A stretch of 47,170 bases of DNA from a virus, in the IMG/VR virus record IMGVR_UViG_3300018046_000002, positions 1 through 47,170 of that record. The stretch is one strand, 5' to 3'. The notes below the pieces were generated by a model. It was not told the origin of the DNA, searched no databases, and saw only the letters and a program-made list of their open reading frames with translations. Below are positions 30,771 to 45,391 of this stretch, piece by piece (positions within the stretch are counted from its first letter, which is position 1; the number at the start of each line of letters is the position of its first letter). The translations under genes and the position numbers were made by a program.

Positions 30771-33431
30771 ATGAAGAAAGCTCGCAATATCATTTTAGGC
30801 ACAATCCTTGTTCTGACCCTATGCGTCGGCGGATTGGCCCTGGCTGATTTCTACGGGGGGTTCCCCAACGCCGGTGTCACTGCTGCCAACATCATCGCCG
30901 CCCTCACCGGCAACCCGCTTCCCATCCTCCAAGGCGGCTCCGGTGCAACCACGGCTGCTGGTGCTCTTAGCAACTTGGGGGGCGCCCATAACGGTGCGAA
31001 CTCGGACATTACATCGCTGACAGGGTTGACCACACCGTTGAGTGTAGGCCAAGGCGGCACCAACGCAACCACGGCTGCTGGCGCTCTTAGCAGCTTGGGT
31101 GGCTTGCCCTCTACCAGCCCGCAAATCACCGGTCTTTTAACTGTTCAAGGCGTTGCCGCTAACGACAATCCCGTTGTAGGTTCCTCATATTTCACCACAG
31201 GTTCTTGGACTTCTACTGGTTGGACAGGTTCGGGTAATGGTCCTTGGACTAACGTTTCTACTAATACTGCGGCTCTTTCTTTCTCTGCGACGTGTTCAAA
31301 CGCAACAGTCTATAGAGTTAATTTAGTCACTTCGGGCACTTACGGTTCAGGGACAGTGACCGTGACTTTTGGCGGCAAGACACAGAACATAACTGCTCTG
31401 GGTACTATTGACTGGTATCCTTTGACTTCGGCAACAACCAACTTGGTAGTAACGCCGCCGGGGACATTCACAGGCACGATTGCGTTTACAATAACGCCAT
31501 TAACAGCATCCACTCCAACGGTGCAGCTTAATACTTCTGGTGCGGTAGACGCTGTAGAGGTACGTGAAAACTCATCGCTTGGCAATACTTTCTTTGGTCT
31601 AAATAGCGGTGAGTATAATACTACAGGGACGAGTAATACTTCGTATGGGGCGAATGCTTTAAAGTTCAACACTACCGGCAACTACAATACCGCCAGTGGT
31701 TATTACGCCCTCACCAGCAACACCACCGGAAGCAGCAACACTGCCAATGGCTATAACGCCCTCCAGAACAACACCACCGGCAACTACAATACCGCCAGTG
31801 GTTATTACGCCCTCTACAACAACACTACCGGCAACTACAACACTGCCAATGGCATGCAGGCCCTCACCAGCAACACCACCGGAAGCAGCAACACTGCAAA
31901 TGGTTATAACGCCCTCTACAGCAACACCACCGGCACCAACAACACCGCTAATGGTTATAACGCCCTCAGCAACACCACCACCGGTAGCAACAACACCGCC
32001 AATGGCATGCAGGCCCTCAGCAGCAACACCACCGGTAGCAACAACACCGCCAATGGCATGCAGGCCCTCAGCAACACCACCGGTAGCAGCAACACCGCAA
32101 ATGGTTATAACGCCCTCTACTACAACACCACCGGCAACAGCAACACCGCTAATGGTTATAACGCCCTCAGCAACACCACCACCAACGTCGCCACGCTCGG
32201 CTCGATTACTGGCGGCTCCCTATACACAACAGGAACGTACACAGGCGTTGTAATGACCCATTCAAGTGGGTCATCTGCAACTACATATCCTACAGCAACG
32301 ATAGTAGTAAATGTTGGCGGTGCGGTTTCATCCGTAACGATAACTTCTCCAGGCGTAGGTTTTCAGGACACAACAACTGTACTCACTGCCCCTGCCGCTT
32401 CGATAGGCGGCACTGGTTCAGGGTTCTCCGTACCCGTTGCAACACTTAACACTGCCGCAAACAATACTGCTCTTGGCTATCAAGCAGGACGATATATTTC
32501 AGGCGGTTCAACAGTTAATTCATGGTCCACGAACTCAACGTACCTCGGAATGAACACTTACGGATTAGCTGATGGCGACATCAATGAAACTGTAATTGGA
32601 TATGGTGCGGTTGGGAATGGAAGCAATACGGTTACGCTAGGTGGGTCAGGAACGACAGGGACGATAGTTCCTTACGGCAACGTCGGCATCGGGACGACTG
32701 CTCCATCCAATAAACTCTCCGTCCAAGACTCAACGGCACTCGGTACTGAGTCTTGCGCATACCCTACTACTTTCTCCAACGCAGTTTGGACCCTGGCTGG
32801 TGACTTCTCAATAAACGGCAGTGCGGCCACGTTTACTGAGTCTGGCGGATCGGGGACAATCACTCAGACTGCCGCTAATCAGGCTCAGGTTTCAGCGGGA
32901 AATCGCTGGTATCAGATACAGTACATTGTTTCAGCTACGCCAACCGTTGTCGGAGCTACGATGACGCTGACAACGGGATTCGCTTCTTCCTCGACCACTT
33001 TACCGATAGTGGCTGGAACAAATACAATACTATTCAGGTCGGCAGCGGCACCGGCAAACATTGTACTGAGCGTTAGCGGTGCTACCTCCGGGGCATTCAC
33101 TCTTACTTCGGTATCTGTTAAAGAGGTTCAGGGCGGCTCTATCGCTCTTGGCGCCGATATTAAGCTCGGTCCGACCCTTATGCCTGCGGGCACGACCGGC
33201 AATCAGACGATCAACAAGTCAAGTGGTCAGGTGAGGATTGCTGCGGCAGGGACAGCAGTGACTGTGACCGACAGCCTTGTGACGGCCAAAAGTATCATTA
33301 TGGCTATGGTGGCTTCGAACGATACAACTGCTCAGGTAAAGAACGTAGTGCCAACGGCAGGGAGCTTCACGATCAATATGGTGGCTGGCGTAACAGCAGA
33401 GACACCAATCAGCTTTGTAATTTTCAATTAG
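30771..33431 (+). CDS. Long repetitive tail-fibre-like protein with signal peptide
   Basis: 886 residues. Residues 1-26 (KKARNIILGTILVLTLCVGG) are a signal peptide. Next come two copies of the fibre motif Q-GG-T/S-ATTAAGAL-S-LGG (about 53-115), a beta domain, then eleven 17-residue units of type TGSSNTANGYNALYSNT (about 285-470), as in trimeric beta-helical fibre and adhesin shafts. The C-terminus (LGPTLMPAGTTGNQTINKSS ... TPISFVIFN) resembles fibre ends. No S74 chaperone motif was recognised. Likely receptor-binding. The export signal is anomalous for a virion fibre. Confidence 0.7.
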   Translation: MKKARNIILGTILVLTLCVGGLALADFYGGFPNAGVTAANIIAALTGNPLPILQGGSGATTAAGALSNLGGAHNGANSDITSLTGLTTPLSVGQGGTNATTAAGALSSLGGLPSTSPQITGLLTVQGVAANDNPVVGSSYFTTGSWTSTGWTGSGNGPWTNVSTNTAALSFSATCSNATVYRVNLVTSGTYGSGTVTVTFGGKTQNITALGTIDWYPLTSATTNLVVTPPGTFTGTIAFTITPLTASTPTVQLNTSGAVDAVEVRENSSLGNTFFGLNSGEYNTTGTSNTSYGANALKFNTTGNYNTASGYYALTSNTTGSSNTANGYNALQNNTTGNYNTASGYYALYNNTTGNYNTANGMQALTSNTTGSSNTANGYNALYSNTTGTNNTANGYNALSNTTTGSNNTANGMQALSSNTTGSNNTANGMQALSNTTGSSNTANGYNALYYNTTGNSNTANGYNALSNTTTNVATLGSITGGSLYTTGTYTGVVMTHSSGSSATTYPTATIVVNVGGAVSSVTITSPGVGFQDTTTVLTAPAASIGGTGSGFSVPVATLNTAANNTALGYQAGRYISGGSTVNSWSTNSTYLGMNTYGLADGDINETVIGYGAVGNGSNTVTLGGSGTTGTIVPYGNVGIGTTAPSNKLSVQDSTALGTESCAYPTTFSNAVWTLAGDFSINGSAATFTESGGSGTITQTAANQAQVSAGNRWYQIQYIVSATPTVVGATMTLTTGFASSSTTLPIVAGTNTILFRSAAAPANIVLSVSGATSGAFTLTSVSVKEVQGGSIALGADIKLGPTLMPAGTTGNQTINKSSGQVRIAAAGTAVTVTDSLVTAKSIIMAMVASNDTTAQVKNVVPTAGSFTINMVAGVTAETPISFVIFN
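31623..32181 (+). repeat. Eleven 51-bp coding repeats in the fibre gene
   Basis: Eleven tandem units of 51 bp (one is 48 bp) encode T-G-x-x-N-T-A-N-G-x-x-A-L-x-x-N-T. Units fall into classes ending YNAL, YYAL or MQAL that recur in mixed order, as expected from unequal recombination. Spacerless, coding and in-frame, so not a CRISPR array. Confidence 0.85.
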
Positions 33432-41311: not shown

Positions 41312-41977
41312 ATGATCGAACAGGATGTCACAATACCCGAAATTTGGGAACCGGGTGAGCAGCCGAAGGATTATCTGCTTAAAATTACAATCAAGAATAA
41401 TCTACTTTATAAGGCTATGCTGGCTAAAGGGATACGGAGTGCTGACGAATTAGAAAGGGCTACCGGGATAAATTCACAGACTATAAGGAAATATCTTGCC
41501 CTGTCTGCCGCACCTTTTACTAAACGCACAAAACCCCCAACTTTGAAAAAGACTATTCTCAAGATTGCTCTTTTCTTAGACGCTAGCCCACTCGATCTTT
41601 TCCCCGAACAGCACTGGACAGAACCTCTTCCTCAAAACACCGTTGAGGCCGAAGCTTCACTAGATGAAATCCAACAATGTTTCGAGCCGCCTAAAACGCC
41701 TTATGATTTTCTGGAAATGTCTGAAACGTCTGTGGCGGTGGACAGGGCATTAAGTTTGTTGCCCCCGAAGATTGAGAAGATACTTCGCATGAGGATGGGC
41801 TTTGATGGACCGGCACAGACCCTAGAAGAAATAGGACAGCACTTCACAACCAGCGGGGAGCGCATCAGACAATTGGAAGCTAAGGGATTAAGGATATTAC
41901 GAGGTCCTGCCGTCCGAGTGAAATTAAAGGATTTTGACCCCCGGCGAAATGCCGGCAAGAAGGAAAAGGCACTTTGA
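41312..41977 (+). CDS. Fusion of XRE-type HTH and sigma-70 region 4
   Basis: 221 residues. Residues about 27-100 look like a XRE/Cro domain: NNLLYKAMLAKGIRSADELE, RATGINSQTIRKYLA, then LKKTILKIALFLDASPLDLF. Residues about 140-208 are sigma-70 region 4: VDRALSLLPPKIEKILRMRM-GFDG, then TLEEIGQHFTTSGERIRQLE-AKGLRILR and a KLKDF end as in RpoD. Sigma regions 1-3 are absent. Region 4 contacts the -35 element and the beta flap, so this protein could recruit or redirect host RNA polymerase to sites read by its own HTH. Second gene of the rightward early operon. Confidence 0.75.
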   Translation: MIEQDVTIPEIWEPGEQPKDYLLKITIKNNLLYKAMLAKGIRSADELERATGINSQTIRKYLALSAAPFTKRTKPPTLKKTILKIALFLDASPLDLFPEQHWTEPLPQNTVEAEASLDEIQQCFEPPKTPYDFLEMSETSVAVDRALSLLPPKIEKILRMRMGFDGPAQTLEEIGQHFTTSGERIRQLEAKGLRILRGPAVRVKLKDFDPRRNAGKKEKAL

Positions 41978-43361: not shown

Positions 43362-43862
43362 ATGGCCGACCAGCTTTTAGACCTCATTGAACGCCTCTGC
43401 AAGATCCTCGACCGTACCGAAACACGCCTTGAGAAAATCCTCGAACGGACGGAGGACCGCGTTGACATGATGCGCGTCTATTGCGACCAGGCTAAGCTGG
43501 ACGCCATGAACGCAAGGGTTCAACGCACATTTGTTGTCGATTTTATCAACTCAATGGCCGACCTTATGGTAACTCACGGCAAAGCCTTCGACTGGCAGCA
43601 ACTCAAGCGGCAAGTCCAGATTCTCAAAAACCGTGAAGGTGTCCGGCTGAGCATCGACAACTGGTTTTGGAGGCCGGAGCCGGACATATCGCTTCGGGAG
43701 CAACTTCTGCGCCGAGCAAAATACCTCAAATCTCAGAATTACAGCATCGACCAGCAATGGGATTTACTCGTTGAATACGTTGCGGCCTGGACCAAAGAAG
43801 ATGTCGATGAATCTCTCATAAAAATCGCAATGTCCGGAGCCCACAATGCCAGCGCCGAATGA
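43362..43862 (+). CDS. Coiled-coil protein upstream of the replicative ATPase
   Basis: 166 residues from ATG 43362 (GGAG 8 nt upstream; ATG 43356 is only 2 nt from it). The N-terminus is coiled coil (QLLDLIERLCKILDRTETRL; EKILERTEDRVDMM). The middle and C-terminus are helical (FDWQQLKRQVQILKNREGVR; REQLLRRAKYLKSQNYSIDQ). It overlaps the ATPase gene by 17 nt, suggesting a helicase-loading or accessory role. No family recognised. Confidence 0.55.
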   Translation: MADQLLDLIERLCKILDRTETRLEKILERTEDRVDMMRVYCDQAKLDAMNARVQRTFVVDFINSMADLMVTHGKAFDWQQLKRQVQILKNREGVRLSIDNWFWRPEPDISLREQLLRRAKYLKSQNYSIDQQWDLLVEYVAAWTKEDVDESLIKIAMSGAHNASAE

Positions 43863-44997
43863 TCTGAAAATAAAATTGACTGATAGCCGGACGAATGCGA
43901 CAAGAGCGACAACGGTTACAACAGTTACAGGAGCGACAAAAGGCGACAGAGGGTTACAGGAGGTTACAGAGGGCGACAGAGGGCGACAGAGGGCGACAGA
44001 CGATTTTGAGGCCAACTTACGAGCGACAATTCGAATCTGGGTAATGGAATATCCAGGTAAATTCACTACTTCCGACATTGACCGCGAATTAGGGTTGACA
44101 TCTCGGCTTGCAAAGCAAAACCGCTCAAAGTGTTTAGCAGTCTTAGTTTCCGAAGGAATAATCGAGCGTGATTTAAATCGGCGTGGCGTTTTCCGTAAGA
44201 AAGACAATATCTTAACCGAAATGGACATCCTGGGAGCCAAATCCGAGGAGCTTCCTTTCGACTTACCTTTTGGACTATCTAAAGAGATAGAGATAAATAA
44301 TAAAGAAATTATACTTTTTATGGGCGAGACGAACACCGGGAAAACCGCCGTTATATTCAACATGATCTGGTCCTGCCTCCGAACCCTGAAAGCTGAGGGC
44401 CTTCTTCGGGATAAAACTGCTCCTTGCAACAACGGAAATTTTGGAATCAGATATTTTTCATCAGAAATGGGGCCGACCGGAGTTCTTAAAAAACTTTTAT
44501 CTTTCGGCAAAGATTACCCGCCTGAAGAATGGGTCAAGTATGTTTTGTCAGCCGAACGCAACCGGGATTTTCAGGATGTTATCGACCCATGCGGATTTAA
44601 CTTCATCGACTACTTGGAAGTTTTCGATGGAGAGTATTTTAAGCTGTCATCTTGCATCACGGCGATTCATTCAGTTTTGGACACTGGAGTTGCGGTGATT
44701 GCTCTTCAGAAAAAACGAGGCACCGACATAGGCCGGGGCGGTGAAGCGACTCTTGAAAAACCTCGACTTGCCGTAGCTCTTTCGGAAGATAGAGAAAAGG
44801 GCAGGATGACTGCCAAAATCGTGAAAGCTAAACATTACCGGGAACGCAACCCGGCAGGGTTAGAAAAGGACTTTGTGATCCGGCGCCGGGGTACTAAGAT
44901 AATTGAGGTAAGCGATTGGGGATATGCCAAAGACCATCAGGTGCGGCGCAACACGGTTGATTACCACAAACTTTATCTGGATGAAATCTATGGCTGA
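43846..44997 (+). CDS. Replicative RecA-fold ATPase/helicase with winged-helix N-terminus
   Basis: 383 residues. Residues about 1-55 are low complexity because the DNA carries the iterons. Then comes a winged helix (RIWVMEYPGKFTTSDIDREL; LAVLVSEGIIERDLNRRGVF). The RecA/AAA_25-like core has Walker A GETNTGKT (160-167), a hydrophobic Walker B strand ending D-Y-L-E (FNFIDYLEV), and AVIALQKKRGTDIGRGG as sensor. This resembles RepA/DnaB-type hexameric helicases or initiators. With SSB downstream and an array of repeats inside its own gene, an initiator/helicase role is likely, as for lambda O with its origin. Confidence 0.75.
   Translation: MPAPNDLKIKLTDSRTNATRATTVTTVTGATKGDRGLQEVTEGDRGRQRATDDFEANLRATIRIWVMEYPGKFTTSDIDRELGLTSRLAKQNRSKCLAVLVSEGIIERDLNRRGVFRKKDNILTEMDILGAKSEELPFDLPFGLSKEIEINNKEIILFMGETNTGKTAVIFNMIWSCLRTLKAEGLLRDKTAPCNNGNFGIRYFSSEMGPTGVLKKLLSFGKDYPPEEWVKYVLSAERNRDFQDVIDPCGFNFIDYLEVFDGEYFKLSSCITAIHSVLDTGVAVIALQKKRGTDIGRGGEATLEKPRLAVALSEDREKGRMTAKIVKAKHYRERNPAGLEKDFVIRRRGTKIIEVSDWGYAKDHQVRRNTVDYHKLYLDEIYG
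43897..43998 (+). repeat. Iteron array: eleven phased GCGACA/GTTACA hexamers (candidate origin)
   Basis: Hexamers G[CT][GT]ACA begin at 43897, 43906, 43915, 43924, 43933, 43943, 43953, 43963, 43973, 43983 and 43993, i.e. 9-bp then 10-bp spacing. Types alternate in pairs: GCGACA x2, GTTACA x2, GCGACA x2, GTTACA x2, GCGACA x3. The 10-bp steps move the motif through all three reading frames of the ATPase gene, so DNA rather than protein sequence is conserved. Strongly suggests binding sites for an initiator. Confidence 0.85.
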
Positions 44998-45391
44998 TTA
45001 CTTTCTGAAAGGTTTTGTGGGAGCAATCCCGACAATAAAAGAAGTCAATGGCAATAGGCTTGCTGAGTTCATCATTTCGATCAATGTCGGCAAGGTAGAT
45101 AAAGCAGAGCGGACGTGGATTAAATGTTCTGCTTGGCGCGAAATGGCGGACCTTGTGAAGAAGCATGTCTTCCAGGGTGATTTACTTGGAATCAATGGCA
45201 GAATTATGAATATTCAGGCGTGGATAGACCCGAAGAGCAAAAAAGCGAAAGCGTCAGTCGAGATCCGGGCCGATGAGATTTTTAAAAGTACAGCGCCGGG
45301 GAAATTCGAGAACATACGAAAACTTAACGGCGGATACGAGCGTCTTTCCGGCCACGCGCAACCATCAGACGACCCTTTTAACCCGGCGTAG
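44990..45391 (+). CDS. ssb: Single-stranded DNA-binding protein
   Basis: 133 residues from ATG 44990 (overlaps the ATPase gene by 8 nt). The N-terminal OB fold MADYFLKGFVGAIPTIKEVN, LAEFIISINVGKVDKAERTW-IKCSAW, MADLVKKHVFQGDLLGINGR and ASVEIRADEIFKS follows SSB strand order. The C-terminus DDPFNPA resembles the acidic SSB tail that recruits partners but is not the exact DDDIPF. It protects single strands during theta or strand-displacement replication and recombination. Confidence 0.85.
   Translation: MADYFLKGFVGAIPTIKEVNGNRLAEFIISINVGKVDKAERTWIKCSAWREMADLVKKHVFQGDLLGINGRIMNIQAWIDPKSKKAKASVEIRADEIFKSTAPGKFENIRKLNGGYERLSGHAQPSDDPFNPA

Follow-up and report, generated by a model that had tools for sequence, protein, structure and literature searches.

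Within a stretch of viral DNA of 47,170 nucleotides, which was analyzed over its whole length and is hereafter called the window, we found an array of short, helically phased repeats that probably constitutes the iterons of the viral replication origin, located inside the gene for the virus's own putative initiator. This reading was derived from the sequence and from a comparison of homologous loci, in which the repeated word co-varies with the winged-helix domain (wHTH) of the ATPase that the same gene encodes. An iteron array inside an initiator gene, resembling that of lambda O, had been suggested in the original prediction, and in view of this covariation it appears to be the best reading of the data. 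The features concerned are listed in Table 1.

Table 1. Positions of the iteron array, of the gene that contains it and of associated features in the window
Feature	Position	Strand	Remarks
Iteron array, 11 copies of GCGACA/GTTACA	43897..43998	+	four steps of 9 bp, then six of 10 bp
Twelfth GCGACA	44023..44028	+	30 bp (three steps) past the eleventh; possible outlying copy of putative function
Gene for wHTH-RecA-type ATPase, 383 aa, proposed initiator/helicase	43846..44997	+	Pfam/PHROGs, AlphaFold2, Foldseek
Array as coding sequence, residues ~18-51	43897..43998	+	mostly disordered linker before the wHTH (AlphaFold2 model)
Winged-helix domain, residues ~42-118	43969..44199	+	model, fold search
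Recognition helix, residues 87-102	44104..44151	+	model; R87, Q91 and S94, with T85 just before the helix, co-vary most with the motif
RecA/KaiC/DnaB-fold ATPase core, residues ~140-355	44263..44910	+	Walker A GETNTGKT; model, fold search
SSB gene (PF00436)	44990..45391	+	downstream of the ATPase gene
Candidate unwinding element	44280..44319	.	no other 40-bp stretch of the window reaches 85% A+T; putative role

The array and the gene that contains it

The array consists of eleven hexamers, either GCGACA (C) or GTTACA (T), arranged as C C T T C C T T C C C, which start at positions 43897, 43906, 43915, 43924, 43933, 43943, 43953, 43963, 43973, 43983 and 43993. This corresponds exactly to the predicted pattern of phased hexamers at 9- and then 10-bp steps. 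Relative to the ATG at 43846 the hexamers lie in frames 0, 0, 0, 0, 0, 1, 2, 0, 1, 2 and 0, the first five thus sharing one frame and the rest running through all three, as had been noticed from the sequence. When we resampled synonymous codons for the same peptide, weighted by the virus's own codon usage, the longest chain of words at 9- or 10-bp steps in 100,000 resamplings was 6 (11 observed), and the maximum number of exact words was 5 (12 observed). On both strands of the window, clusters of at least three GCGACA/GTTACA words were confined to this array, which TRF also picked up as a tandem repeat; in the methanogen virus vir555 the array was likewise unique in the cluster scan. Two close relatives, L002 (81% identical in the ATPase) and L033, have kept ten or eleven words at 9-11 bp steps in spite of indels that shift the frame, and the encoded peptide differs. 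The resampling, the use of three frames and the homologues with changed peptides show that the repeats are conserved at the level of the DNA and not of the peptide. The claim that the protein is not what conserves the hexamers was thus borne out, including by the proposed check of aligning hexamers against codons in homologous genes. We also observed that L002 and L033 are mosaic: the array, the wHTH and the C-terminus are near-identical and a middle segment of the ATPase is divergent. That the two genes agree almost completely at their 5' and 3' ends and diverge in between points to recombination inside the gene.

We modeled the ATPase with AlphaFold2 from an alignment of 73 homologues (mean pLDDT 86.9). 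The model comprises a disordered N-terminus (residues 10-37, pLDDT <50), a wHTH with helices at residues 42-68 and 75-82, a recognition helix and wing strands, and thereafter a RecA-type core. The best PDB folds retrieved by Foldseek with the whole model were KaiC, DnaB and Rad51-like RecA-fold proteins, and the wHTH alone resembled winged-helix domains with weak E-values. The sequence libraries agreed weakly with this assignment (AAA_25 below the cut-off, DnaB-like PHROGs), and a sequence search of the PDB with the ATPase gave no match. The domains suggest that the protein is an initiator, and its fold suggests that it may act as a helicase.

Three further features were observed elsewhere in the window. 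The intergenic segment 43258-43345, upstream of the replication genes, can form a stem of about 23 bp (AAAAGCGATTATGTGTGGTCGG...CCGGTCACACATAATCGCTTTT) enclosing two hairpins, and a T run is also present; it has a folding z-score of −6.1 and no Rfam match, and it is a candidate terminator, priming structure or small RNA. The ORF at 41312-41977, also upstream of the replication genes, has an HTH_26-like region (below the cut-off) and a match to sigma-70 region 4, and its product is possibly a viral sigma-like regulator. About ten 51-bp tandem repeats occupy 31667-32183 within an ORF of 886 aa (30771-33431).

Arrays in homologous genes

A single-protein query of genome contigs yielded no homologues, and an alignment profile was then used. 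The profile search identified about 100 homologues on viral contigs and on bacterial and archaeal MAG contigs, further homologues being present in the methanogen viruses vir555 and MetMV. Many of the homologues are PrimPol fusions, and PF09250 was found in the four that were tested. From these, 86 non-redundant loci of phages, archaeal viruses and MAGs, many of them PrimPol fusions, were surveyed for arrays. An array of exact 6-mers that was reached by at most 3 of 300 synonymous shuffles was present in 33 loci; 32 of these arrays use at least two frames and 24 use all three. Since chains of exact 6-mers overlooked arrays of mixed words, they were replaced by a search with shuffles for 7-mers on both strands with one mismatch allowed. 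With this search, a single heuristic with step limits fixed at 8-13 bp, 60 of the 86 loci were found to have a phased array, within or close to the sequence that codes for the wHTH, that exceeded every one of 40 codon-order shuffles. In the other 26 homologues no significant array was detected within the scanned region; short ORFs beginning at the wHTH are frequent among these homologues, whose sites may be elsewhere or nonexistent. Among successive copies up to 13 bp apart, a step of 10 bp was most frequent (157 cases), followed by 9 bp (67) and 11 bp (60).

The words vary considerably between loci and include GTTGAA (vir555), GACCACA (MetMV), GTCTACA, TGTAACA, GACGACA, CGTCAGC and TGAAAGC. 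An ACA core is nonetheless common to 46 of the 60 arrays, and 73% of the seed 7-mers hold ACA or TGT, versus 19% after shuffling. A position-wise mismatch profile within arrays was biased by the selection of copies and was discarded.

Two classes of loci were distinguished. Class I consists of PrimPol fusions of about 530-620 residues, in which the segment between the PrimPol and a PriCT-like domain contains approximately four copies, and a second sub-array, of up to six copies at 10-bp steps, occupies about +31 to +84 within the sequence that codes for the wHTH. Read in the wHTH frames, GTTACA is translated as V-T, C-Y, L-Q and V-T, and TCTACA as S-T, L-Y, L-Q and S-T. As the iteron word is read in successive frames, the amino acid sequence of the wHTH is in part a translation of it. 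The window is a member of class II, in which there is one array of about 9-12 copies just upstream of the wHTH, with steps mostly of 9 bp in the upstream half (24 of 33) and mostly of 10-12 bp in the downstream half (26 of 32). Such a gradient of steps is visible in the window, L002, L003, L077, L084, L127 and others, and a degenerate copy sometimes fills a 20-bp step. In L099 and L040 the two sub-arrays are reverse complements of each other, and the array of L096 begins outside the ORF. These three cases exclude a purely protein-level cause of the arrays.

Covariation of the iteron word with the recognition helix

We compared iteron similarity with protein similarity among 59 non-redundant loci, conditioned on ATPase similarity. 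The motif correlated with the recognition helix (partial r = 0.278, n = 59) in a manner reached by 0 of 2000 permutations, which leave some phylogeny in, three different controls being clean; for the 42 strongest arrays the partial r rose to 0.367. A sliding scan placed the motif signal in the wHTH only, with values near zero in the ATPase. Choosing the nearest homologue by helix, at an ATPase identity below 50%, allowed the motif to be predicted (mean percentile 0.739, p = 2e-7), whereas choosing the nearest by ATPase did not (0.485). For instance, the window (helix sequence NRSKCL) and L012 (HRSKCL) share the word GCGACA at an ATPase identity of 37%.

Separate analyses of the two classes addressed the origin of this signal. 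In class I the helix correlated with the motif at r = 0.388, and the PriCT-like domain, flanked by sub-arrays A and B, did not (r = −0.013), which makes physical linkage an unlikely cause. In class II, where the arrays are wholly upstream of the wHTH, the helix still correlated (0.266, 3 of 2000 permutations), whereas the N-terminal half of the wHTH did not (−0.016), so that overprinting is not the cause either. When motifs were derived only from copies upstream of the wHTH, the helix gave 0.256 (0 of 2000) and the ATPase blocks gave −0.12 to 0.04; the top co-varying columns were then S94, T85, Q91 and R87, of which 87, 91 and 94 are on the same side of the helix. We therefore consider it unlikely that the signal reflects co-inheritance of the wHTH and the array as one DNA segment. 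As the motif tracks the recognition helix, and neither the ATPase nor the domain between the arrays, the ATPase's own wHTH is most likely the reader of the iterons encoded in its own gene.

Proposed origin model, alternatives and related systems

A search of viral contigs for GCGACA-type arrays, blind to gene function, matched unrelated phage genes annotated as replication initiation or primosomal. The arrays, with 10-bp steps, are located in L010 (3547-3582, DnaT-like), L011 (936-971), L022 (536-571), L026 (3964-3999) and L030 (3397-3432). The occurrence of arrays in such genes provides independent support for a role in replication, and it suggests that one-turn iteron arrays occur in several initiator families. 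The GC skew around 43.9 kb, proposed as a further check, argued neither for nor against an origin: its sign follows the coding strand both in the window and in vir555, and it is uninformative for this reason.

From these data we infer the following model. A step of 9-11 bp is approximately one helix turn, and molecules of the wHTH-ATPase would therefore sit side by side on one face of the DNA, one per hexamer, the recognition helix reading the lineage-specific left half of the word beside the family-wide ACA half. The row of bound molecules would concentrate RecA/DnaB-like ATPase domains at the site and might melt nearby A+T-rich DNA. The A+T block listed in Table 1, which lies inside the ATPase gene about 280 bp downstream of the array, is a candidate for this unwinding element; a similar block is present in L002 and a weaker one in L033, and the averaged A+T profile of the family has no clear shared peak, so that this candidate is not family-wide. 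The ATPase itself would then be loaded as the helicase, the downstream SSB would cover the strands, and in relatives the PrimPol domain of the same polypeptide would make the primer.

The wHTH-ATPase might instead bind the array as an autoregulatory operator or roadblock, or as a partition (centromere-like) site. The covariation indicates only that the protein probably reads the array and not what follows from this reading, and helically phased short repeats also occur at partition sites (ParR/parC). We nevertheless consider this unlikely, since the polypeptide that would read the array also contains a RecA/DnaB-type ATPase and, in many relatives, a PrimPol, an SSB gene follows, and the arrays found by the blind search are in other replication-initiation genes. 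Moreover, the arrays lie deep inside genes of 530-740 aa with no conserved promoter-proximal placement. Among the neighboring ORFs scanned, none matched a ParM-type motor.

It is much less probable that two proteins, or two forms of one, alternate on pairs of GCGACA and GTTACA, even though the window contains only these two words, in the order CC-TT-CC-TT-CCC and with no intermediates. The original prediction had attached special weight to this paired alternation, and had left the choice between one initiator with relaxed recognition and two alternating proteins. The pairing is absent from L002 and L033, where a third word appears and the order is C-T-C-T-(GATACA)-C5 and C-T-C-T-(GATACA)-C6, respectively. 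In addition, the array of L012 mixes ACGACA, GCGACA and GGGACA, and most arrays of the family vary around one ACA-containing word. The special weight was therefore not supported, and the alternating pairs of the window are probably incidental. As the order of pairs is not conserved and both words share the family's ACA half, one initiator that tolerates variation in the left half of its site is a simpler explanation than two proteins; it is the option preferred here, and the mixture of GCGACA and GTTACA is read as tolerated degeneracy of one site.

Equally improbable is a reader other than the ATPase, such as a host factor, a viral repressor or a terminase small subunit. Initiator genes can hold sites for other factors, and binding by the ATPase is itself deduced from the comparison of loci. 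Among the tested parts of the polypeptide encoded by the gene, however, only the recognition helix co-varies with the motif, and the fact that motifs turn over among related viruses speaks against a conserved host factor. The least credible alternative is that the array is a low-complexity linker without DNA function, produced by tandem slippage or by selection on a disordered peptide: the encoded region is indeed disordered, slippage can expand tandem repeats and TRF detects the array, but peptide selection is excluded by the synonymous resampling, relatives keep the copies across frames and indels and have them again about 230-280 bp apart, inside the folded wHTH, outside the ORF or as reverse complements, and the covariation of motif and recognition helix already contradicts it.

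An origin within the gene of its initiator is known from several systems. The lambda origin consists of four 19-bp iterons inside the O gene with an adjoining A+T-rich segment (PMC4488673), and the origins of TP901-1 and Tuc2009 are described as lying inside the initiator genes for ORF13 and Rep2009, respectively (PMC8965321). The array in the window is likewise made of direct repeats inside the gene of the protein that would bind them. Its words of 6-8 bp, at steps of 9-11 bp and in about 8-12 copies, are unlike the four 19-bp iterons of lambda, and lambda has a separate helicase loader, P, whereas here one polypeptide joins the DNA-binding domain to a RecA-type ATPase and, in many cases, to a PrimPol. 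Membership in the lambda O family proper was rejected, as the protein matches RecA/DnaB-like families only and the repeats measure 6-8 bp.

Self-loading helicases that recognize short repeats, some of them with a primase, are known from P4 alpha, SaPI Rep and SCCmec Cch2; Cch2 binds three AAGTG repeats, and winged-helix recognition is described for P4 alpha (PMC4234260, PMC7581432). The ATPase in the window would similarly combine origin recognition at short repeats and helicase function in one initiator. The three helicases belong to other ATPase groups (D5-like/AAA+) than the RecA fold found here, SaPI Rep and Cch2 bind through C-terminal domains to sites downstream of the gene and not within it, and co-evolution of motif and helix does not feature in the text consulted. 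Membership in the P4 alpha or D5-like group was also rejected, the best Foldseek matches being KaiC/DnaB/Rad51 RecA-fold proteins and Pfam giving no D5 match. The hexameric helicase of plasmid RSF1010 does have a RecA fold. RSF1010 combines an iteron origin, this helicase and a dedicated primase (RepC/RepA/RepB'; PMC4234260), which are three separate proteins, whereas in the present case a single polypeptide comprises the wHTH, the ATPase and often a PrimPol, and the putative origin is inside its gene. In pRN1, ORF904 is a PrimPol-type replication protein with a winged helix, and the proposed origin is a stem-loop downstream of the gene with no iterons found, unlike the array described here (PMC4234260).

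The present system would thus work like the initiators of the lambda O and P4 types, yet it lies outside those protein families. Whereas origins inside initiator genes are known (lambda O, TP901-1), the new features here are one-turn iterons of 6-8 bp, a PrimPol/RecA-type putative initiator, the turnover of the motif in co-evolution with the helix, and the overprinting of iterons on the wHTH. In the open-licence literature we found no description of one-turn arrays of 6-8 bp in PrimPol/RecA initiator genes, nor of the overprinting of such iterons on the wHTH, nor of their co-evolution with the recognition helix.

With moderate confidence we propose that these loci represent a class of viral replicons that is widespread, apparently not described before, and represented in viruses and MAG contigs of both bacteria and archaea. 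In this class the gene of a wHTH-RecA initiator (often PrimPol-fused) would also bear the overprinted origin, which in some members falls on the winged helix itself. The word and the recognition helix would diversify together, giving rise to private origins and to a natural code of wHTH specificity. The speed at which the words turn over points to selection for private origins, which, as a conjecture, might for example avoid cross-recognition between co-infecting elements. If this view is correct, the origins of many uncultivated phages and archaeal viruses would be readable directly from the initiator gene, and the wHTH helices with their DNA words, about 60 naturally occurring pairs, would constitute a data set for decoding winged-helix specificity. 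It would also present an unusual case of one stretch of DNA being both the coding sequence of a folded domain and a protein-binding array, with reader and target residing in the same gene and evolving together.
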